From: Rhizobiaceae bacterium
Lineage (GTDB): Bacteria > Pseudomonadota > Alphaproteobacteria > Rhizobiales > Rhizobiaceae
Length of the DNA: 64,000 nt
Direction: 5' to 3'
NCBI GenBank assembly: GCA_017644105.1
Contig: JAEPMD010000017.1
Location: 1-64,000, forward strand
The notes under the pieces were generated by a model. It saw only the letters and a program-made list of their open reading frames with translations, was not told the DNA's origin and did no database searches. Below are positions 22,496 through 32,746 of the stretch, piece after piece (within the stretch, counting starts at the first letter, position 1; every line of letters starts with the position of its first letter). The translations under genes and the position numbers were made by a program.

Positions 22496-22597
22496 TATCA
22501 CTGCTGTGCTCGCTATCGATTTTGAGCGCAATCACCAATAAGGAATTTGATTCATTAACGTGCGATAAACCTTTGAAAACACTTTTAAAAACAAAGC

Positions 22598-23770
22598 TCA
22601 GTTTTCACCCGTGATGTCGCGCGTAAACACTTTTGAACTCACACCCTGGAGATCATTTGAAAGCCGGTTGGCCACAATCACATCTGATCTTTCCTTAAAA
22701 GCCTCAAAATCACCTACGACGTCCAAACCCTGATAATCACTACCTTGCAAAGTCGGTTCATAAATAATGACTTCGACATTTTTTGCACGCAAACGTTTTA
22801 CGATGCCTAAAACTGCGGATTGTCGGAAATTATCGGATCCTGCTTTCATAGAAAGGCGATAAATACCTACGGTCGAAGGCGACCGTTTCATAATCTGGTC
22901 GGTTAAGAAATCTTTACGCGTACGATTGGAAGCAACAATCCCGCTGATCAATTTTTGCGGTGTGTCTTTAAATCCTGCCTGCAATTGTTTTGAATCTTTT
23001 GGTAAGCAATATCCACCATAACCAAACGATGGATTGTTGTAATGGTTTCCAATTCGAGGGTCATGGGATAGACCTGAAATAATCTGAGCTGAATCCAAAC
23101 CGTTATTCAAAGCATAGGAATCGAGTTCATTGAAATAGGCGACACGCATGGCAAGATAGGTATTTGCAAATAGCTTAATCGATTCTGCTTCATCCATGCC
23201 TGTTAAAAAAGATGGCACATCCTCTGATAGGCTGGCATTTGAAAACAAGTCTCTAACATGCTCAGCACGTTGACTTTGTTCGCCCACAACAATTCTTGAG
23301 GGGTTTAAATTGTCATAAAGGGCTTGCCCCTCGCGCAAGAACTCCGGGCAAAATATAATGCGATCAGTTTGTAATTTCTCACGCATTTTTCGAACATAAC
23401 CCACAGGGATTGTCGATTTAATAACAATGACCACTTCAGCGTTATTGGTCAAAACGATTTCGCAGACTTCATCAACGGTGGACGTATCAAAACTGTCTCG
23501 CTCAACATCATAATCCGTAGGGGTAGCAACGACGATATAATCAGCGCCATCTAAAGCTTCATCCATATTTGTCGTTGCAGTAAGATCAAGTTGATTATTA
23601 GTTAAAAACTCACTGGCCAGCGGATCTTCGATTGGGCTTTTGCCCTCATTTATAAGATCCACTTTTTCAGTGGAGATATCAACTGCAACAACTCGATTTC
23701 GTTGCGCTAACAATATCGCGTTAGATACACCAACATAACCCAAACCAATAACTGCTATCTTATAGGACAA
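22598..23770 (-). CDS. ugd: UDP-glucose 6-dehydrogenase
   Basis: A 390-residue enzyme that oxidises UDP-glucose twice to UDP-glucuronate with NAD. The N-terminal NAD site is IAVIGLGYVGVSNAILLAQ, and the catalytic cysteine lies in FGYGGYCLPKDSKQL (about residues 246-260), as in the short E. coli type. It is followed in function by the UDP-glucuronate decarboxylase gene just upstream on the same strand (47 bp between the two frames), so the pair supplies UDP-xylose. Confidence 0.95.
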   Translation of the reverse strand: MSYKIAVIGLGYVGVSNAILLAQRNRVVAVDISTEKVDLINEGKSPIEDPLASEFLTNNQLDLTATTNMDEALDGADYIVVATPTDYDVERDSFDTSTVDEVCEIVLTNNAEVVIVIKSTIPVGYVRKMREKLQTDRIIFCPEFLREGQALYDNLNPSRIVVGEQSQRAEHVRDLFSNASLSEDVPSFLTGMDEAESIKLFANTYLAMRVAYFNELDSYALNNGLDSAQIISGLSHDPRIGNHYNNPSFGYGGYCLPKDSKQLQAGFKDTPQKLISGIVASNRTRKDFLTDQIMKRSPSTVGIYRLSMKAGSDNFRQSAVLGIVKRLRAKNVEVIIYEPTLQGSDYQGLDVVGDFEAFKERSDVIVANRLSNDLQGVSSKVFTRDITGEN

Positions 23771-23817
23771 AATCTTGTTCCTTAAACATTAAGTTGGACA
23801 AACAAGTTGTGCGTCTC

Positions 23818-24780
23818 CTAACGGCCACGCAATATTTTCGAGAAGTAATCGATGGTCTTCTGCAGCCCGTGTTCCAGCTGAATTTCTGGCTGCCAGTCTA
23901 ATAATCGTTGTGCTTTTGAAATATCTGGTTGGCGTTTTTTGGGATCATCCGAAGGTAAATCTTTATAGATTATCTCGGACCCAGAACCTGTCATCTCAAT
24001 GACTTTCTCCGCCAATTCTTTAATGGTAAATTCGTTTGGGTTGCCTAAATTGACAGGTCCAGTAACACCGTTGTCAGATTGCATAAGTTTGATAAATCCA
24101 TCCACCAGATCATCAACATAACAAAACGATCGCGTTTGCGATCCATCTCCATAGATTGTGATTGGTTGACCGGTCAAAGCTTGGACTATGAAATTTGACA
24201 CTACTCGTCCATCAGACTTGTGCATTCTGGGACCATAGGTGTTGAATATTCTTGCAATTTTAATATCCAGATCATGTTGTCGGTGAAAATCGAAAAAAAG
24301 AGTTTCAGCGCACCGTTTTCCCTCATCATAGCAAGCTCGAATACCATGTGGATTTACATTTCCCAAATAGCTTTCCTTTTGTGGGTGCACATTGGGATCA
24401 CCATAAACTTCACTGGTCGAGGCTTGGAATATTTTGCATTCCAAATTCTTCGCTAGTTCCAACAAATTCATGGAGCCATAAACAGATGTCTTGATGGTAT
24501 GTATCGGGTCATGCTGATAATGAATTGGCGATGCAGGACAAGCTAAATTGTAAATTTCATCAACTTCTGCCTGTAAGGGTATGCAAATGTCGTGATTTAT
24601 GAATTCAAAATTTGGATTATTGAGATGATGCTTAAAATTGCCCTCATGTCCGGTAAACAGATTATCAACGCATAATACTTTATGCCCTTCGCCCATCAGC
24701 CGGTCAACCAAATGTGAACCAACGAAACCTGCGCCACCAGATACCAAAATACGCCGGCTTTCAGCTGCAAAACTCATCAT
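23818..24780 (-). CDS. uxs: UDP-glucuronate decarboxylase (UDP-xylose synthase)
   Basis: A short-chain dehydrogenase/epimerase of about 320 residues that converts UDP-glucuronate to UDP-xylose. The NAD site is [18 protein letters not shown] near the start; the catalytic tyrosine and lysine are in [31 protein letters not shown] and [16 protein letters not shown] are typical of UXS. The ATG at 24780 has GGAGAAAA directly before it and fits homologs; the frame extends upstream to 24837. First gene of a minus-strand unit with ugd. The only caution is that related dTDP- or UDP-sugar dehydratases share most motifs. Confidence 0.9.
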
Positions 24781-24918
24781 TTTTTCTCCATCAAGAATGT
24801 GACCATATAGACTTTGGGCGATGGTATTACAATGCAAGTTATGGCCTTAATCCCATTAACAAAAACGATCGGTTTAAATAGTCAATAACATAAAGCTGTT
24901 GCGGAGGGTTTACACCTC

Positions 24919-26028
24919 ATGCTAGACGACTTTTCAACTCAAATTGGCAACGAAATACTCCGCCTCACCAATAACGATTACCGAAAGCTGAATGAAATGT
25001 TAGCCTTTGCTATCAACAAACATTACAACTCGCGCATTCAACAGAAAATCCGCAGCAACCTGGCAAAGCATAAACACAGACTCCCTAATTTCGACGTTAA
25101 GAATTTCACATTTTCAAACAGCCAAGAACTCGTTTCACCGAACGATATTCTCATCGAGCATCGCGGCTCCACCATTAACTTTGCATGCCGAGACGATGTG
25201 TTTTCATCTAAATATCCTTACGCATACGGATACCTGAAAGACAGAAGCGCAACTTTTCTGTTTTATGTGGCCTTGGCTGGCGATGTCGCAAAACATCTGG
25301 TTTGCGATACTTCTGATGGAAACAATTTGAGTATGGCGGACATTCGATTTTCATCTCCCCTTGCCAAAGATGGACTATTACCAGACGCTTTTTTCTTTGA
25401 AAGCGAAGGATATCAGCATCAACGTGATTTATATGCAAATAATGCTGTGCCTTGGACTAAGCGAAGCGACAAAATCGTTTGGCGCGGCGGTTTAAATGGC
25501 GAAGGACTGCGCCTTTGTGATGAACAATTGATATCGAACGGAGCTGTTCATCAGCGCGCGCGAATGGCGTTCGCTTGCAAAGGGACAGACATTGATTTCA
25601 AATTTGCCAATGCTGGTCATGAGAGCAGAGTGTTAAGTGCGCAGGGACTTATGGGCGAACGCATTGATACAACGAGCTGGCTTCAACGAAAATTTGCAAT
25701 CGATGTTGACGGGTATTCAAACGCTTGGGACAATTTGTTCCATCGCTTACTTTTTGGCTGCTGCGTTCTAAAGGTTGAAAGCCAGGCGGGGTTTAGGCAA
25801 TGGTACTATGATAAACTCGTTCCATTTGAACATTATGTGCCCATCAAGGCAGATCTCAGCGATCTTCATGAACAGGCAGACTGGGTGCAATCCAACCCTA
25901 AAGAAGCTGAACGAATTGCCGCAGCTGGCTGCAGGCTTGCTCATTCAATGACGTTTGAAAGTGAAGCTGATTACGCAGTGCGCGAGATCCAGCGGGTATG
26001 CGAAGCAAAAAACGCTGTGTCACACTAG
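24919..26028 (+). CDS. CAP10/GT90-family glycosyltransferase
   Basis: A 369-residue protein with the features of the CAP10-like glycosyltransferase family 90: PWTKRSDKIVWRGG (about residues 181-194), RARMAFACKGTDIDFKF, and the conserved end FAIDVDGYSNAWDNLFHRLLFG with VESQAGFRQWYYDKLVPFEHYVPIKADLSDL (positions 25690-25862). GT90 members include fungal xylosyltransferases and protein O-glucosyltransferases; they use UDP-sugars. The divergent ugd-uxs unit makes UDP-xylose, so xylose transfer onto lipopolysaccharide or another surface glycan is a reasonable guess. A GGAGGG ribosome site lies 11 bases from the ATG. Confidence 0.82.
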   Translation: MLDDFSTQIGNEILRLTNNDYRKLNEMLAFAINKHYNSRIQQKIRSNLAKHKHRLPNFDVKNFTFSNSQELVSPNDILIEHRGSTINFACRDDVFSSKYPYAYGYLKDRSATFLFYVALAGDVAKHLVCDTSDGNNLSMADIRFSSPLAKDGLLPDAFFFESEGYQHQRDLYANNAVPWTKRSDKIVWRGGLNGEGLRLCDEQLISNGAVHQRARMAFACKGTDIDFKFANAGHESRVLSAQGLMGERIDTTSWLQRKFAIDVDGYSNAWDNLFHRLLFGCCVLKVESQAGFRQWYYDKLVPFEHYVPIKADLSDLHEQADWVQSNPKEAERIAAAGCRLAHSMTFESEADYAVREIQRVCEAKNAVSH

Positions 26029-26060
26029 CCGGCCAAGCCGATCAGATTTGCATGTTTTGG

Positions 26061-26726
26061 CTAAACACTCATCGCTACAACGCGCGATATTTCAGTGAGT
26101 GACCGTCCAGATTGCTCACGCCAGATATTAAAGGCTTCTTGGACTTGTTGCATCGCTTTTTGCGATGTTGGTGCTTTGTCAATCACGCCTTCTGCCGTTA
26201 GACGACCGACAACACTTTGTGACAACAAAAAACTGTCCTTGCCCTGAAAACGCAGGCAATATTGTCCCGTCGTGCCGCCCATTCGCGCCGCGCTCTTTTT
26301 AAGCAAATGTAACAATCCAATATAATCTTCTGATGGCCAATCACCAATAACTTTGCCAATACCACCTTTTTCAGAAAGAGATGCGATAAAACCAGCATTT
26401 TGCTGCACAGCTTTGATCTTAGCGCCATAACGTACAATGCGGGTATCCGACACCAAGCGTTCAAAATCCTCATCATTGAGCATCAAGCAATGCCCGATAT
26501 CAAACCCTTCAAATGCCGCTTCAAAACCCGGCCACATGGATTCAACCACTTTCCAATTAAACCCGGCTTGAAACACGCATTTGGTCATGGCGGCCAACCA
26601 TCGATCATCTGAGATAGCGGCAAGTTCAGCTGCAGATTTTGGTTTATCACCAATGAGGGTTTCCAAAGCATCATGTCCTCCTTTGCGATCCGCCGAAATC
26701 TCATAAATCTCCTCAAACGTGCGCAT
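26061..26726 (-). CDS. DNA-3-methyladenine glycosylase I-like protein
   Basis: A 221-residue protein with the core of the Tag family: AAMTKCVFQAGFNWKVVESMWPGFEAAFEGFD and DTRIVRYGAKIKAVQQNAGF (helix-hairpin-helix region, about residues 45-120). The zinc-binding N-terminal CxW motif and C-terminal HxxxC of E. coli Tag are absent, so this is a shortened relative whose removal of alkylated adenine remains to be shown. Overlap with neighbours is nil; it converges with the GT90 gene. Confidence 0.8.
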   Translation of the reverse strand: MRTFEEIYEISADRKGGHDALETLIGDKPKSAAELAAISDDRWLAAMTKCVFQAGFNWKVVESMWPGFEAAFEGFDIGHCLMLNDEDFERLVSDTRIVRYGAKIKAVQQNAGFIASLSEKGGIGKVIGDWPSEDYIGLLHLLKKSAARMGGTTGQYCLRFQGKDSFLLSQSVVGRLTAEGVIDKAPTSQKAMQQVQEAFNIWREQSGRSLTEISRVVAMSV

Positions 26727-26891
26727 GGTGCCTCCCTTCTATTTTTATGTCAGCCGCTTATTTTATCGCGTATATGCTAACTGTAAATCTCTGATTACGC
26801 CTATCATGAAATTCGAAATCATTTGCGTTTTTAAGTAGGATCCAATGGAGTAATTGACAATTTCGCCATTTTTCATCAACGAACGCAAGCA

Positions 26892-27512
26892 TCAGTCCCC
26901 GCTCTCATAACCCCAATATTTGGCCAGAACAGATAGATCCTTACGCAGATTTACCATTTGCTTTGCAATTGATTTCGAACTTTTAAGACCCAATATCATT
27001 GCGCAATATTGCGTGACAGTAAAACCATCCCCTACAATCTTTTGAATGCGTGTGACGGCTTCATCGTCCTTTCGTTGATTTTGACCAAACTTTGCTAATT
27101 CTTTATTGGCATTTCTGATCACATCTTGCGCGTTGATTTGTTTTTCGGTCAAAGTCAACTGCGCGGATGCAAAGTCCACACGCTGACGCGCATAATCGAT
27201 ACCCTTCCCTGTTTGACCGGAGCACACCAAATAAGCCCCCATATATTTGTAGCCAGCCAAAAACTGCGGTTGTGTAATTCTTTTTCGATTAAGCAGTTCG
27301 AGTAACGCATTGTCGGAAACGCGTTGAATGGCGCGCAACTTTTGTTTCCCGAGTGCTTGATCTGAACCTGTGACCTTTTTCAGGATATCAGGATCGTCCA
27401 CATCAGATAAGATAAAACCTTTTGTCCCTTTAGGTAATTTCTTGGCTCCCGGTTTTAATTGGACACAGTGCGGGTTGAGAGATTTATGTTTGCTTTGACT
27501 TTGTGTGTGCAA
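26892..27512 (-). CDS. DUF6456-like protein next to GcrA
   Basis: A basic protein of about 206 residues. The central part (RVSDNALLELLNRKRITQPQFLAGYKYMGAYLV) and the C-terminal part (VTRIQKIVGDGFTVTQYCAMILGLKSSKSIAKQMVNLRKDL) resemble the alphaproteobacterial DUF6456 family, helical proteins often encoded near regulators of the cell cycle. I favour the TTG at 27512 because GGAG sits 6 bases before it; the frame continues to 27620 and overlaps the GcrA-like gene by 40 bases. It follows that gene on the same strand, so they share a transcript. Confidence 0.6.
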   Translation of the reverse strand: MHTQSQSKHKSLNPHCVQLKPGAKKLPKGTKGFILSDVDDPDILKKVTGSDQALGKQKLRAIQRVSDNALLELLNRKRITQPQFLAGYKYMGAYLVCSGQTGKGIDYARQRVDFASAQLTLTEKQINAQDVIRNANKELAKFGQNQRKDDEAVTRIQKIVGDGFTVTQYCAMILGLKSSKSIAKQMVNLRKDLSVLAKYWGYESGD

Positions 27513-27580
27513 TTTGTACTCCAATTTTATAATCTGAAAACTCGTAAACCGGTACAATGATCCCGCGCAAATCGTTCGAT

Positions 27581-28087
27581 CTATTTCGGCCTTATGCTCT
27601 TTTTGAAGTGATATAAACAATGGCTCGCGCGACGATCACCTTCACGTTTTGATTTATCCATCACTGGTGCTGCGCAACACATCATGCCTGCTCCCGCATC
27701 TTCAACCTCATCATCAACACACCAACTGCAAAACCCGCGCTTAAGCTGCATAAATGGCATGGGTGCGTTTTGAGGCTTGTGAACCTCAACAGATGGAGCT
27801 TTCCAATTTAGTGCGGCAAGACTGGACGCGTTAAACTTTTTGTCCGTGCTTCTTTCAGGGTTCCTCGGTGCCGCGGATTCACGATTACCCTTCCGCTTGA
27901 GACAAGAAGAACCAACGCGAGTATTTAAGGAAAGAATGGCCTTAGTTTTACGCAAGCGATGGATACGCCCTGACACCATCGCTTTACTCATACCCAACTG
28001 ATCTGCAATCTGAGAATATGTTTGATCGGTTTTTAAACCTTGAAGCAAAATTTCATCTTGTGCCTCTGTCCATGTGGTTACACCCAT
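27581..28087 (-). CDS. GcrA-family cell-cycle regulator paralog
   Basis: A 168-residue protein with an N-terminal DNA-binding helix-turn-helix (TWTEAQDEILLQGLKTDQTYSQIADQLGMSKAMVSGRIHRLRK, positions about 4-47) and a C-terminal zinc-like cysteine part (RGFCSWCVDDEVEDAGAGMMCCAAP...SHCLYH), both seen in GcrA. GcrA binds methylated DNA and sigma-70 to control cell-cycle genes. The low-complexity linker and the position beside a phage-type repressor suggest a paralog, maybe of a mobile element, rather than the housekeeping copy. Confidence 0.75.
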   Translation of the reverse strand: MGVTTWTEAQDEILLQGLKTDQTYSQIADQLGMSKAMVSGRIHRLRKTKAILSLNTRVGSSCLKRKGNRESAAPRNPERSTDKKFNASSLAALNWKAPSVEVHKPQNAPMPFMQLKRGFCSWCVDDEVEDAGAGMMCCAAPVMDKSKREGDRRASHCLYHFKKSIRPK

Positions 28088-28121
28088 AAGCCCCTACCTT
28101 GTTCAGCAATTGAAACGGCAA

Positions 28122-28251
28122 ACGTATAAACCCCACGTTTAAACGTATATACGTATAATTCCAATTTGACAAGGATAATTATTCGTATATGTATAAAATA
28201 ACTGATTCAGTATCCGCGTATCAACAAACACAAATAAGAACGGAATACGTT
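28122..28251. promoter_or_regulatory. Operator cluster between GcrA-like and repressor genes
   Basis: The core CGTATA or its complement occurs repeatedly: around 28122-28128, in the perfect palindrome ACGTATATACGT (28143-28154) with an extra TACGTATA at 28150, and at 28184-28195 (CGTATATGTATA). A partial match ends near the repressor start (ATACGTTTA). TTGACA lies at 28166-28171 and CGTATAT begins 12 bp after it, overlapping a -10 of the plus-strand promoter. This is the expected layout for a self-repressed phage-type switch. The spacing TTGACA-N12-CGTATAT recurs at 33366. Confidence 0.65.
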
Positions 28252-28252
28252 T

Positions 28253-28921
28253 ATGGATTATCGGCAATTGCTTCGCATCATGCTTCAAGACACCAAGCAA
28301 GAAGAGCTCGCAATTGAGCTAAAAACAACACAGGCAACGATCTCCCGATGGCTATCAGGACAAGAACCGCGCGGCGCAGCACTCGAACGCATCCGTAATT
28401 TGGCGCGTGCTCGCCGCCTAGCGGAAGATGCCACAATTGAACAGAGTTATGACAGTAGTGGAACGGGAAACTTCCGTGAGCCCGGAGCGACATTGCTGCG
28501 CAATCGAACACGAATTAGACGTGGAAATGGTGAGATCTCGAACATTTCCACGAATCCAAAACTTAAAAATGCAAATCTTCCTTCACCTTCTGATGGCACA
28601 TGGAGTTTTCCAATTGAAGTTAAAGCGGGATGGCAAAATTTTGACCAATCCTATGCCATTTTGATCGAAGGGGATTCCATGGCTCCGACATTGCCCAATG
28701 GCTCTTATGCTTTTGTCGATACCAGCCAAACATACCCCTCCCCGCCAGATCTTTATGCGATAAATTATGGGCATGGTGCTATGGTTAAACGCGTTGAATT
28801 ACTCCCGGGAGATAAAATCCGCATTATTTCCGATAATGGCCGCTATTCTGATTTCGAATTTGAGCAATGCGATGTGGAGGTTTATGGGCGCGTTATTGCT
28901 AGCTTTATTCAGCATGGCTAG
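28253..28921 (+). CDS. S24-family phage-type repressor (LexA/CI-like)
   Basis: A 222-residue protein with an N-terminal XRE helix-turn-helix (EELAIELKTTQATISRWLSGQEPRGAALERI, about residues 18-48), a basic linker, and a C-terminal S24 peptidase domain with GDSMAPTLPNGSYAF (serine nucleophile in GDSM, about residue 143) and the lysine region around GAMVKRVEL. Such repressors are cut at the linker when RecA is active. It faces the GcrA-like gene across a 165-bp region full of CGTATA repeats. It may be a prophage remnant that now controls local genes. Confidence 0.85.
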   Translation: MDYRQLLRIMLQDTKQEELAIELKTTQATISRWLSGQEPRGAALERIRNLARARRLAEDATIEQSYDSSGTGNFREPGATLLRNRTRIRRGNGEISNISTNPKLKNANLPSPSDGTWSFPIEVKAGWQNFDQSYAILIEGDSMAPTLPNGSYAFVDTSQTYPSPPDLYAINYGHGAMVKRVELLPGDKIRIISDNGRYSDFEFEQCDVEVYGRVIASFIQHG

Positions 28922-28942
28922 ACGTCGCGTGCAGTTTTAACC

Positions 28943-29509
28943 TCATTCAACCCGCAAGATCTCAATACCTGTCCATTTGTCGCCATCACGTGCGAGGCGA
29001 AATCCTTCGCAATATCCAAAAACTGCTCCCCAGTCTTTATGATCCGCGCTTGGCAATGCACCCATTGCCATCAATTCCATAATGCCCCCATGGGAAATGC
29101 CCAAAATGGTTTGTTCGTCTTCAATTTGATCAATATGGAGCGCTAAAATATCCGCCTGTTGCTTGGCGTATTTCGCCACTGGTTTATTTTTCTTAACAGC
29201 TTTGCTCATCGCCTCGAAGTTTGCCGGCCATTTGCTTTTTCGATAGACCTTTTCAGGAAAGAAACCAAAGCTCTTTGTAAAGACATCGACTTCGAAACCG
29301 AAGGATATTGCAGTTTCGATGGCACGGGGTTTTTTGGATGTGATCACACCATGAAATGGGTTGTCATGCTGTTTACGCATTTGATCACCCACTTGCCGCG
29401 CAAGGTCTATGCCCGCCTGGCTTAAATGCTTACGGGGGTTTTTCGTACCGGATTTACAGTTTTCATATTTCCGCCGCATGGTATGGCGACGCATCTCGAA
29501 ATATTTCAT
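28943..29509 (-). CDS. Histidine phosphatase family protein
   Basis: A 188-residue protein of the phosphoglycerate-mutase-like superfamily. The catalytic histidine is in FEMRRHTMR near the N-terminus (LRHG is replaced by MRRHTMR), arginine follows in VITSKKPRAIETA (about residues 54-66) and the second histidine is in LGISHGGIMELM (about 136-147). SixA or small-molecule phosphatase activity is possible. It is convergent with the S24 repressor gene. Confidence 0.75.
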   Translation of the reverse strand: MKYFEMRRHTMRRKYENCKSGTKNPRKHLSQAGIDLARQVGDQMRKQHDNPFHGVITSKKPRAIETAISFGFEVDVFTKSFGFFPEKVYRKSKWPANFEAMSKAVKKNKPVAKYAKQQADILALHIDQIEDEQTILGISHGGIMELMAMGALPSADHKDWGAVFGYCEGFRLARDGDKWTGIEILRVE

Positions 29510-29630
29510 AAATATCCCCCAATACGCAAAAACTCACATAATTATGGAATAAGTTAGAGAAATCAGCAAGTTCGAAGTGAAAATACCGTTAATCCTGTCA
29601 CAAATCTGAAAAGTAGAAACCTAACTGCGA

Positions 29631-29644
29631 TTGACTCAGATCAA
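29631..29644 (+). promoter_or_regulatory. FNR/FixK-type binding box
   Basis: TTGAC-TCAG-ATCAA matches the FNR consensus TTGAT-N4-ATCAA at nine of ten positions. Its centre (29637/29638) is about 41 bases before a plausible transcription start near 29679, the class II activator position, with a TACAAC element at 29667-29672 as a weak -10. No plus-strand coding gene follows, only the RNA candidate. Confidence 0.6.
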
Positions 29645-29678
29645 TTTCAAACAAATGAAATGCATCTACAACTCATTA

Positions 29679-29797
29679 CAGAGTTACGGAGTGTGTATAC
29701 CCTCCCCGACCTATCCCCAATTGGGTCGACCGCAAAGATCCTCCGTCAACTCCTATGATTAAGGCTTCAAGTTGAGAAACTTGAAGCCTTCTTTTTT
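29679..29797 (+). ncRNA. Candidate small RNA with anti-Shine-Dalgarno segments
   Basis: A plus-strand transcript of about 120 bases is inferred from an upstream FNR-type box and a strong terminator. No plus-strand coding gene exists between 28922 and 30656. The body carries four CU-rich stretches complementary to ribosome sites: CCCTCCCC (29700-29707), TATCCCC (29712-29718), CCTCC (29740-29744) and CTCCT (29750-29754). One sits in the 12-base loop of a CGACC/GGTCG stem (29707-29711/29724-29728). The start is approximate. This is the pattern of alphaproteobacterial small RNAs that block translation, but it is inference. Confidence 0.6.
29761..29797 (+). terminator. Rho-independent terminator of the RNA candidate
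   Basis: AAGGCTTCAAGTT (29761-29773) and AACTTGAAGCCTT (29778-29790) form a perfect 13-bp stem with a GAGA loop, followed by C and six T (29792-29797). Its minus-strand reading lacks a T tract, so it ends plus-strand transcription only, opposite to both neighbouring genes. Confidence 0.92.
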
Positions 29798-29838
29798 GGT
29801 ATTTTAACAAGAGATACGCTTTAGCGTATTGTCTTGTT

Positions 29839-30354
29839 CTATGCCTCAAGCGGCTTAAAAGTCAGTGCTGCACCGTTTAAGCAGTGACGCAAACCGGTCG
29901 GCTGTGGACCATCATCGAAAATATGACCAAAGTGCCCACCGCAGCGACGACAGTGAACTTCTGTGCGGGTTGAGAAGAAGGAATTATCTTCCTTTGTCAG
30001 CACAGCATCATCGATATTGTCCCAAAAACTTGGCCAACCTGTCCCGCTTTTATATTTGGTCTTGGATGAATAAACCGGTAGATCGCATCCCGCACAATGG
30101 AATGTTCCTTCGCGGTTTTCATTGAGCAATGGATGGGTGAACGAGCGCTCAGTTGCTTCGTGGCGCAAGACTTTATATTGCATATCGTCTAAAATTGCTT
30201 TCCATTCTGCATCCGGCTTTGTGATTTCATATGCGAAATTTTCTCCCGCCTCTTGCGGCCACTCATTTTTTGAAGCATTGGCAAAACCCGAACGCGCTAA
30301 GAATGCACCTGCGCCCAAGCCAGTGGTGATGGTAAGAAATGTTCTACGGTCCAT
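29839..30354 (-). CDS. msrB: Tat-exported peptide methionine (R)-S-oxide reductase
   Basis: A 171-residue MsrB with a twin-arginine-like signal (MDRRTFLTITTGLGAGAFL), so it repairs oxidised methionine in periplasmic proteins. Seen are the two zinc CxxC pairs (FHCAGCDLP and HCRRCGGHFGH), KSGTGWPSFW, and the catalytic cysteine in GLRHCLNGAAL near the C-terminus. Cytoplasmic MsrB lacks such a signal. An msrA gene is not adjacent. It would fit the oxidant-producing haloperoxidase and the multicopper oxidase found nearby. Confidence 0.93.
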   Translation of the reverse strand: MDRRTFLTITTGLGAGAFLARSGFANASKNEWPQEAGENFAYEITKPDAEWKAILDDMQYKVLRHEATERSFTHPLLNENREGTFHCAGCDLPVYSSKTKYKSGTGWPSFWDNIDDAVLTKEDNSFFSTRTEVHCRRCGGHFGHIFDDGPQPTGLRHCLNGAALTFKPLEA

Positions 30355-30655
30355 GTTTTTCTCCTGTGGTCATTACTTCATTCATTTATTGTGGATGTTA
30401 AAGTAACGTGAAAAGACGAAGTTTAGTTTCAATTGACGCCTTTATCTCAGAAGTGAAGATAAACTGATATAAAAGTGTTCGTGACCAAACCAAACGTTTT
30501 CATGACGCGATTGTGAGGGGAAAGTTATTGAGACTAACTAATTGAAATATTTTAGTATTCAATTAAATTTCTTGATGCGTCACTGCAAGTCAGACGCATC
30601 AAGACTTACTAAATTCAGTGTAGTTGGATTTTTCGAACCACACGTTAGCATGCAC
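30355..30655. other. Intergenic region between gloA and msrB
   Basis: It holds the msrB promoter region on the minus strand and the tail of the gloA transcript. A perfect 11-bp hairpin (CTTGATGCGTC at 30571-30581, GACGCATCAAG at 30593-30603) lies 53 bp downstream of the gloA stop and is followed on the minus strand by AAATTT only, so it is a weak terminator at best. The rest is AT-rich with no gene. Confidence 0.5.
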
Positions 30656-31072
30656 CTACCAGTGACCTGTATTGCCCATTGATGCCCAAGGTTCTGCTTT
30701 TTCTAATGGTGTACCCTTTTGTAAAAACTCGATGGATTGATTGTCAGGCGTGCGAATAAACGCCATTCTGCCATCATGTGGCGGGCGATTGATCGTCACA
30801 CCATTGGCCTGCAGATGCGCACAAGTTTCATAGATATTATCAACTTCATAGGCTAAATGCCCGAAATAGCGTGCTTCTCCGAGTTCTTCAGGATCATAAT
30901 TCCAGGTGAGTTCAACCGGCGTATCCTCACCACCAGGAGGGGCCAGCATGACAATGGTAAATCGCGCTTCGGGCTCATCATAACGTGCGGTTTCCTTAAA
31001 ACCCAGCAATTCAAAAAATGCGATGGAGGCGTCTAAATCGCTGACCCTAAGCATTGTATGTAGATATTTCAT
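30656..31072 (-). CDS. gloA: Glyoxalase I (lactoylglutathione lyase)
   Basis: A 138-residue glyoxalase that isomerises the methylglyoxal-glutathione hemithioacetal to lactoylglutathione. All four metal ligands of the family are in place: histidine in KYLHTML (residue 5), glutamate in VELTWNYD, histidine in FGHLAYEVDN and glutamate in SIEFLQ. I chose the ATG at 31072 because GGGAGAGAC precedes it directly and it matches the family start (MKYLHTMLRV); the frame runs on to 31141. Confidence 0.92.
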   Translation of the reverse strand: MKYLHTMLRVSDLDASIAFFELLGFKETARYDEPEARFTIVMLAPPGGEDTPVELTWNYDPEELGEARYFGHLAYEVDNIYETCAHLQANGVTINRPPHDGRMAFIRTPDNQSIEFLQKGTPLEKAEPWASMGNTGHW

Positions 31073-31234
31073 TGTCTCTCCCAAATCTGACATTGATTGC
31101 GTTGTTCGATTAAATTTTGAACATGACCACGCAACTAACATGTTAGTTTTAGGAAGTCAATTTCCTACTTCTTGCCTCCATTCCGTAAAGTGCGTCTAAA
31201 TAAATCGAATGAAACCAAAGTCATTCTGAACCGT

Positions 31235-32746
31235 TTACGTCACAGTAAACTGTCCCATCATGCCGCAATCTTCATGTTCTAAAATATGGCAATGATACAT
31301 ATAGGGCGCGTGTTCTGGCGCTTCATAATCGAATTTGACGAGGACTTCAGACCAGCCATCCTCGACATGCACCATATCTTTCCATCCTTGCGCATATGCA
31401 GGAGGTTCGGCCCCTTGTTGGCTTAATATGCGGAAAGAGCAGCCATGAATATGGAACGGATGAACATCTTCGCCCACAGTCATGCGCCAAATCTCAGTAT
31501 CACCTTTGCGCACTTTCTGATCGATGCGCTCCATATTCATAGGCTGGCCATTAATTCCCATCGCACCTTCGCCACAAATATTGCCCCATGCTAATGCCAG
31601 CGCGGTGAAATCAGTATCACCATCCATGTTGAGTTCAAAGGATCGCGTAATTGTCGCTTGGCTCGGATCAGGCACATCCATATTGGCCAGTGTCTTTGGC
31701 ATGGTTGCATCAATACCCTGCTCGCCATTCTGGTTTAGTGTAAGCAATGTGGTCTGGTTGCCACCGCCAAATAACCCACCCAAAAATCCAAAGACCCCCT
31801 CACCACCAGCTAATTGAACTTGTAGACTATTCGTTTGCGCCGCACCCATATCCACGAGAATCTCATAACGTTCGCCGGGCGACATAACGATATTTTCAGC
31901 TGGAACTGTCGACGCTAAAAAACCACCATCGGAGGCAATCACATTAACCGGTCCACTGGCCATTGAAAGTGTCAAAAACCTGGCATTACAAGCATTTAGA
32001 ATACGCAGACGCACCAAACCCTTCGGAACGGATTGCGCCACCGGTGCTATGGCACCATTGACCACCATCGTATCGCCTAAAAAGCCTTCTTCGAAGACCT
32101 CACCAGTGTGCTCATAGCTCATTTCATTGGCGGCATTGAAGGTTTTGTCCTGCAGAATGAGCGTGAAATCATCAACCCCATAGGTCTTGGGTAGATCGGC
32201 AGAAAGGCTGGCGTCATCCTCAATGAGCATCACGCCGGCGAGCCCTTTATAGGTTTGTTGCGAAGTTTTTCCATGGGTATGAGAATGGAACCAATTCATC
32301 GAGGCATTCTGTACAATTGGTACATCAGGTGACCAGGTTTCCCCAACTTCGATTTCCTGATGTGGACCGCCGTCGACGTCTCCAGGTATATGCAAGCCAT
32401 GCCAGTGCAAAGTCGAGACATCATCAATTGCGTTTGTCACATCAAATGGCAGTGTTTGCCCCTGCCTAACGCGGATAACCGGCCCCAGATAATCGTGGTT
32501 GATACCAAAGGTTTGGCTTTTGCCTCCATGACCAAAATCATGCGTTGCGGTCTGAAGCTTCAGCGAAATGCGACCTTCAATACCCTCCAAAAAGTCCATC
32601 ATTGGGATAAGTGGAAGAGGTCGCGATGCATTCTGAGCGATAGCTGACTGAGCCCCCAGCCCACTTACTGCCCCACCAGCTGCCACTATGGTGGTCACAC
32701 CTAAGGCACTTGATCCCGCTGCTTTTAGAAAATCACGTCTGTTCAT
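31235..32746 (-). CDS. Tat-exported multicopper oxidase
   Basis: A 503-residue three-domain multicopper oxidase. The Tat signal is MNRRDFLKAAGSS with the usual AQNA cleavage area near residue 38. Copper motifs in order: HWHGLH (about 114), HSHTHGK (about 155), HPFHIHG (about 437) and HCHILEHEDCGMMG (about 485) with the type 1 copper cysteine. The type fits CueO/SufI-like enzymes that oxidise metals or phenolics in the periplasm. ATG at 32746 is preferred to the longer frame from 32797. A divergent MarR gene probably controls it. Confidence 0.93.
   Translation of the reverse strand: MNRRDFLKAAGSSALGVTTIVAAGGAVSGLGAQSAIAQNASRPLPLIPMMDFLEGIEGRISLKLQTATHDFGHGGKSQTFGINHDYLGPVIRVRQGQTLPFDVTNAIDDVSTLHWHGLHIPGDVDGGPHQEIEVGETWSPDVPIVQNASMNWFHSHTHGKTSQQTYKGLAGVMLIEDDASLSADLPKTYGVDDFTLILQDKTFNAANEMSYEHTGEVFEEGFLGDTMVVNGAIAPVAQSVPKGLVRLRILNACNARFLTLSMASGPVNVIASDGGFLASTVPAENIVMSPGERYEILVDMGAAQTNSLQVQLAGGEGVFGFLGGLFGGGNQTTLLTLNQNGEQGIDATMPKTLANMDVPDPSQATITRSFELNMDGDTDFTALALAWGNICGEGAMGINGQPMNMERIDQKVRKGDTEIWRMTVGEDVHPFHIHGCSFRILSQQGAEPPAYAQGWKDMVHVEDGWSEVLVKFDYEAPEHAPYMYHCHILEHEDCGMMGQFTVT

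Follow-up and report, generated by a model that had tools for sequence, protein, structure and literature searches.

A putative FNR-controlled small RNA with two open anti-Shine-Dalgarno-like motifs next to msrB in a Rhizobiaceae bacterium

In the 64-kb stretch of DNA analyzed here (the window), two minus-strand genes, encoding a histidine-phosphatase-like protein and MsrB, flank a region that can be read as one plus-strand unit with an FNR box, C-rich motifs, and an intrinsic terminator. A previous reading made from the sequence alone (the sequence-only reading) had stated that both neighbors lie on the minus strand (28943-29509 and 29839-30354) and that no plus-strand gene exists here, and this is correct: no plus-strand gene was recognized between the phosphatase gene and msrB, and none follows the terminator. 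The main features are listed below, in which G000 refers to this genome and G001 to another genome of the same genus (as are G002 and G003).

28943-29509, minus strand: histidine-phosphatase-like gene, divergent (Pfam PF00300, 24.6 bits; cut-off 21.7)
29541-29569, minus strand: promoter-like TTGCTG-N17-CATAAT of the phosphatase gene (TTGCCG-N17-CATAAT in G001)
29631-29644, plus strand: FNR box TTGACTCAGATCAA, centered 41.5 bases before 29679
29667-29672, plus strand: -10-like hexamer TACAAC, 36 bases past the first base of the box
29678-29797, plus strand: putative small RNA of ~119 nt, from a start near 29679 (29678-29680) to the end of the terminator
29681-29752, plus strand: closing stem GAGUUACGGAG / CUCCGU-C-AACUC, from the predicted fold and two-species alignment
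29699-29706, plus strand: motif 1, ACCCUCCC, open, invariant, and anti-Shine-Dalgarno-like, inside the invariant UAUACCCUCCC
29707-29728, plus strand: inner hairpin of 7 pairs, 3 of which are changed in G001 and all of which still pair
29714-29721, plus strand: motif 2, UCCCCAAU, in the hairpin loop, open and invariant
29761-29797, plus strand: intrinsic terminator (13-pair stem at 29761-29790, 4-nt loop, CTTTTTT tail)
29839-30354, minus strand: msrB (SelR domain, Pfam PF01641), convergent

The near-perfect FNR box and the plus-strand terminator with a 13-bp stem and a U tract, both proposed by the sequence-only reading, are indeed present. A pattern scan found TTGACTCAGATCAA to be the sole TTGAYNNNNRTCAA site within the window; such a box is not significant by itself, as 0.67 sites are expected by chance per 64 kb and at least one was found in 50 of 100 shuffles. 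The 5' end of the predicted RNA was deduced solely from the position of the box, whose center at 41.5 bases before 29679 corresponds to the class II position, and this start coincides with the foot of the RNA's own closing stem in the predicted fold. Three terminator-like sites were found in 601 bases scanned (0.6 expected). When box sites were collected from 1.63 Mb of this genome (approximately 41%), the box described here was the only one of 22 strict boxes followed by a terminator 60-260 bases downstream. Among 186 loose box directions scanned, six had a terminator at this distance, three of these units had no called gene across them, and the box in the window was the only strict one. The combination of a box and a terminator unit exceeds chance, whereas the box alone does not.

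In the predicted fold, the mean unpaired value is 0.96 for motif 1 and 1.00 for motif 2, and both motifs are almost fully unpaired in the folds of both species (0.96-1.00). Four CU-rich stretches had been proposed between the box and the terminator; all of them exist, but only ACCCUCCC and UCCCCAAU are open, whereas CCUCC at 29740-29744 lies mostly inside the main stem and CUCCUAU is approximately half paired. The sequence-only reading had drawn on alphaproteobacterial RNAs with CCUCC loops; the open motifs differ from the CCUCCUCCC loops of the known RNAs of that group. By sequence criteria, the unit is stand-alone and non-coding and has its own terminator.

G001 carries the unit at the same place (homologue at L002:1501-1619). 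The box is identical at 12/14 positions (TTGATGCAGATCAA in G001) and the -10 hexamer at 3/6 (TATCAA in G001), while the offset of 36 from box start to hexamer, which corresponds to class II spacing for the deduced start site, is the same in both genomes. In a two-way alignment, identity is 64/83 in the RNA body and 30/38 columns in the terminator. Across the full structure, pairing cells make up 95.1% in the two sequences versus 25-52.5% when the partner was slid; with just two sequences available, the observed covariation value was also reached by 251/500 shuffles. The box, its spacing, the stems, both motifs, and the terminator are kept in G001, in contrast to the immediately surrounding DNA.

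With regard to the switch, proteins with an HTH_Crp_2 domain were found in both species (two in G000 and one in G001). The FNR-type proteins (L276 and L275) have an N-terminal CxxC-x6-C and an ETVSR helix, residues that mark this type; the Pfam domains of L276 are cNMP_binding, Crp, and HTH_Crp_2, and a hemN-like gene (by eye) adjoins the FNR-type genes. Elsewhere in G000 (contig C33, L336:9959), a strict FNR box, TTGACATGAATCAA, was observed 50 bases upstream of a frame that begins with VSEQDNGQNDHNEPTRRDFLYLTTG, a Rieske-type protein by eye, which suggests a working FNR regulon. Of the original proposal of an FNR-box-controlled small RNA, the unit, the class II box, the anatomy in G001, the FNR-type gene, and the phosphatase gene's own promoter-like sequence all speak in favor, and the set of motifs was corrected. 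The simplest reading would be that FNR activates a small RNA encoded on the plus strand.

Considering these features together, we give a probability of roughly 0.6 to the hypothesis that the locus encodes an FNR-activated, trans-acting small RNA that silences mRNAs via their ribosome-binding sites. At low oxygen, FNR carrying its iron-sulphur cluster would bind 29631-29644 and activate a class II promoter, from which transcription would start near 29679 and yield an RNA of ~119 nt ending at the terminator. By pairing with ribosome-binding sites rich in purines, the two open C-rich motifs would then reduce the translation of target mRNAs. Covering of ribosome-binding sites, as AbcR and NfeR1 do, would be the likeliest mode of action. 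The gene and its likely control are supported by sequence, and the mechanism and targets are plausible.

Possible targets of motif 1 were sought through its internal complement, GGGAGGG, which occurs 2-13 bases before an ATG at 34 places in G000 and 27 in G001 (reversed pattern: 11 and 6); part of this excess is expected because GGGAGGG is itself a good Shine-Dalgarno (SD) sequence. Frames of at least 100 codons follow 16 of these places in G000 and 13 in G001, and 11 genes are shared, namely six ABC permeases/ATPases and one TRAP transporter (seven transporter parts), SoxA, an IclR regulator, a proteasome-like peptidase, and a response regulator. Gene labels of the kind MalG-, DppC-, or RbsA-like were given by eye, and Pfam provided the domain only. 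According to Pfam, ABC parts account for 6/20 compared with 5/100 random genes used (p 0.003); from 110 random genes, 100 were scanned, leaving out three window references and the last seven listed, and the random-gene ABC matches listed were two ABC_tran and two BPD_transp_2, with BPD_transp_1 not among the matches listed. Compared with genes having equally strong SDs of other sequence, the values are 6/20 vs 15/110 (p 0.07) or, with 6/16, p 0.03. The 15 controls (5 ABC_tran, 5 BPD_transp_2, 4 BPD_transp_1, and 1 ABC-3) were summed over family rows, in which one protein may count twice, and hence represent up to 15 proteins. The excess shrinks against these controls because ABC genes often have strong SDs. 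A regular-expression count over 1121 ATG genes gave 1/20 vs 23/1101 ABC genes (p 0.35), but this count is insensitive, recognizing one of the six found by Pfam. The corresponding contrast in G001 (p 0.0096) was computed with 6/13 where the correct count is 7/13, and this p value is not relied on. As a further control, 30 of 81 matches to AAGGAGA were taken, among which 16 led into frames of at least 100 codons and 2/16 were ABC parts by eye. Ranking 1484 crudely called genes by duplex gave too much noise to be useful, and 18 candidate targets were listed for motif 2. Complementary SDs occur in both species; the ABC excess is marginal against strong-SD genes (p 0.03-0.07) and the targets are therefore hypothetical. 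Genes for sugar, peptide, and dicarboxylate uptake are weakly suggested among them, and the set resembles the targets of AbcR/NfeR1, which offers only a lead; RNAs of the AbcR or NfeR1 type could act at these GGGAGGG sites as well. Genes for an ABC permease, an IclR regulator, and a TRAP transporter, all led by GGGAGGG, were observed within ~9 kb of each other, likewise in both species (L210-L212 on G000 contig C21, ~22500-31900; L230-L232 on G001 contig C110).

The marginal target signal of motif 1 would also be consistent with an FNR-activated small RNA whose main action is something other than SD covering, such as that of a sponge, a protein binder, or a regulator of a single partner (the phosphatase mRNA), a reading that we consider unlikely but deserving of some weight. 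In this genome, the phosphatase gene has a ribosome-binding site, AUUGGGGGAUA (window 29499-29529), that is nearly complementary to motif 2, the hairpin loop UAUCCCCAAU of the RNA, whose transcription leads away from this gene. However, the corresponding site in G001, AAUCGGGGUUG, pairs poorly with motif 2, and C-rich motifs that are both open and invariant are the usual mark of SD-binding RNAs (PMC8844928, PMC10746234).

It is improbable that the box serves the divergent phosphatase gene and that the hairpin is merely the terminator of the convergent msrB. The FNR box, a palindrome, is 122 bases away from the start codon of the phosphatase gene, and the stem works in both directions, with a minus-strand model match of 28.4 bits in G001. 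However, the box is unlikely to serve the phosphatase gene because this gene has its own promoter-like sequence, TTGC[CT]G-N17-CATAAT, which is kept in both species and is closer than the box to the start codon. The hairpin can be assigned to the plus strand because a T tract follows it on that strand in both species; msrB has a terminator-like site of its own on the minus strand (29814-29829), and the RNA body that separates the box from the hairpin is kept in G001.

Less probable again is a fortuitous arrangement, in which an FNR-like box and a terminator met by chance or remained as decayed sequence without a functional RNA. The box alone is expected by chance, the unit was found in two genomes only, and conserved intergenic DNA between the two species is not rare: other intergenic DNA can be equally conserved, as in the 30-base windows upstream of msrB (30391-30660), which show 77-97% identity to G001. 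This upstream region, whose identity is at least that of the msrB gene (best window 97%, at 30421-30450), had no credible Rfam match. Against a chance origin, conservation around the unit falls on the box, body, and terminator, whereas identity is 9/22 in the spacer between box and -10 hexamer and 67/123 left of the box, and the DNA right of the terminator is mostly deleted in G001; for the flanking genes, identity is 97/109 (phosphatase start) and 430/517 (msrB). In addition, the fold z is -5.5 in this genome and -7.2 in the G001 homologue, and none of 200 shuffles was equally good in either case. A short leader or small-protein mRNA is very improbable, since the frames of 12-23 codons present in the RNA of this genome are not kept in G001 (no reading frame is kept in both RNAs) and no plus-strand gene lies past the terminator.

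Returning to the proposed FNR-activated silencer of mRNAs, we examined its distribution with a covariance model (R1) built from the G000 and G001 copies; the large scans used stricter filters, so that weak relatives may have been missed. At E up to 0.1, matches were detected in 5/297 genomes of the family and 3/61 of the order, among which the real copies are those of G000 and G001 in the family set and that of G000 alone in the order set. In G230, G228, G185, G346, and G328, what the model matched is a terminator-like hairpin that lacks an FNR box in register, a box-like site in L014 is 1.4 kb away from the hairpin match, and the DNA matches L005, L006, and L007 are short and have no box in register. 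Neither G002 (82% complete) nor G003 (99%) yielded a model match at E up to 10; in G003, msrB is found among other genes and a box-like site is absent from its 3.5-kb locus (L097). In the best 80 of 436 msrB loci searched with the model, only L015 (on the G001 contig) matches, and a plasmid search returned one irrelevant 27-base match. Conservation in relatives, which the sequence-only reading had made a test of its proposal, thus extends to one of the three other genomes of the genus, and to no other family or order genome searched with the model. Being found in 2/297 family genomes, the RNA gene appears to be either young or diverging too fast to follow.

Other FNR boxes in the family may drive comparable RNAs. 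A box followed by CCCTCC was present in 63/394 family genomes, and 4 of the 30 loci examined contain a terminator: L113, L129, and L130 are candidates, and L105 was discarded as CCCTCC itself forms the hairpin before a frame. None of the 30 loci matches the R1 model. A box with CCTCC and a T tract was found in 17/397 genomes of the order (G001 being outside the draw), with a hairpin in 3 of 22 loci examined; one is the present window (L146), and the other two (L134 and L154) are short and inside coding sequence by eye. In both genomes of genus g65 in the draw (L129 in G151 and L130 in G067, 1501-1650 each), an FNR box is accompanied by an invariant TTCCCTCCTCC and a strong terminator. These candidates resemble the present RNA in having an FNR box, CCCTCCTCC, and a terminator, but differ from it in their location between ccoP- and ccoG-like genes, their other stems, and the lack of an R1 match. 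A ccoG leader is an alternative for L129 because the unit is flanked by frames judged by eye to be ccoP-like and ccoG-like; the g65 unit is therefore a second candidate FNR-driven anti-SD RNA or else an attenuated ccoG leader. In genus g53, an FNR box in L113 of G055 (minus strand, ~1589 down to 1430) precedes a long stem, inside which lies TACCCTCCCTCC/TACCCTCCCTCCCC, and a GC-rich hairpin whose T tract is poor; this type of unit occurs in 1/6 g53 genomes of the draw. Rfam gave one sub-threshold match for the g65 and g53 candidates (rimP leader on L129), and the plasmid search gave none for the g65 RNA. Expression of the g65 and g53 candidates would mean that Rhizobiaceae acquired FNR-driven anti-SD RNAs more than once. 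We only tentatively raise the idea, which is more doubtful than the main reading, that such RNAs arose several times independently in this family (next to msrB, in g65 with TTCCCTCCTCC, and perhaps in g53) and form an oxygen-controlled branch of AbcR/NfeR1-type uptake silencing; if so, import of sugars, peptides, and dicarboxylates would be turned down when respiration is limited.

Comparison with Rfam gave no match of the present RNA at the gathering score and four matches up to E 10, none of which is credible. Rfam holds an FnrS family, which was not matched at the gathering score or up to E 10, and the pairing sequence of FnrS presumably differs from that of the present RNA. SuhB (RF00519) was likewise absent from the four matches. 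The best of these was RsaE/RoxS (RF01820; 18.9 bits, E 0.65, gathering score 79), which responds to respiratory regulators (ResDE; table in PMC8139620) and shares C-rich open motifs with the present RNA, but belongs to Firmicutes; the likeness is convergent or due to chance.

In Rhizobiales, AbcR1/AbcR2 (alpha-r15) are ~115-120 nt long, end in a terminator, have two unpaired CU-rich anti-SD motifs, and target largely transport genes (PMC8844928, PMC7143759); SuhB is their Rfam relative (PMC7143759). The present RNA is similar to them in size, end terminator, and two unpaired C-rich motifs. However, the AbcR motifs are CUCCUCCC and UUCCCCUC rather than ACCCUCCC and UCCCCAAU, and the AbcR promoters are LsrB- or RpoH1-dependent (PMC8844928). 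NfeR1 (alpha-r14), a 123-nt RNA of Rhizobiaceae controlled by NtrC and LsrB, silences mRNAs via anti-SD motifs (PMC10746234) and is composed of three hairpins, each with an unpaired CCUCCUCCC (PMC10746234, PMC3927594), whereas the present RNA has zero copies of CCUCCUCCC and one hairpin inside a long stem.

Among RNAs linked to oxygen, FnrS of E. coli is directly activated by FNR and represses mRNAs that are dispensable without oxygen (PMC8139620, PMC4263372); the likeness lies in FNR control of a small RNA, which for the present RNA is deduced from the box. In Rhodobacter sphaeroides, FnrL is bound at the promoters of RSs0019 and RSs2461, whose function is uncharacterized in that paper (PMC4263372); they are alphaproteobacterial like the present RNA but from another order, and the comparison concerns FNR-type control. 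PcrZ of the same species is induced by low oxygen and represses mRNAs by pairing, but differs in having a PrrA site in its promoter, a perhaps indirect effect of FnrL, and photosynthesis targets (PMC8139620).

By the tests made, the present RNA falls outside alpha-r14, alpha-r15, RsaE/RoxS, and FnrS, although it may work like them. In our literature search, with subscription journals mostly outside its range, we recognized no Rhizobiaceae anti-SD RNA driven by FNR or FixK. Both FNR-controlled small RNAs and Rhizobiaceae anti-SD RNAs are already known kinds. The RNA described here would be a modest and easily tested addition and no new principle; if real, it would be a young regulator of narrow distribution, and its origin could be dated. 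The anti-SD RNAs of Rhizobiaceae are well studied and have been tied to nitrogen, carbon, and stress signals; if our main reading is true, low oxygen would gain a direct post-transcriptional arm over translation, and perhaps over nutrient uptake, in this family.
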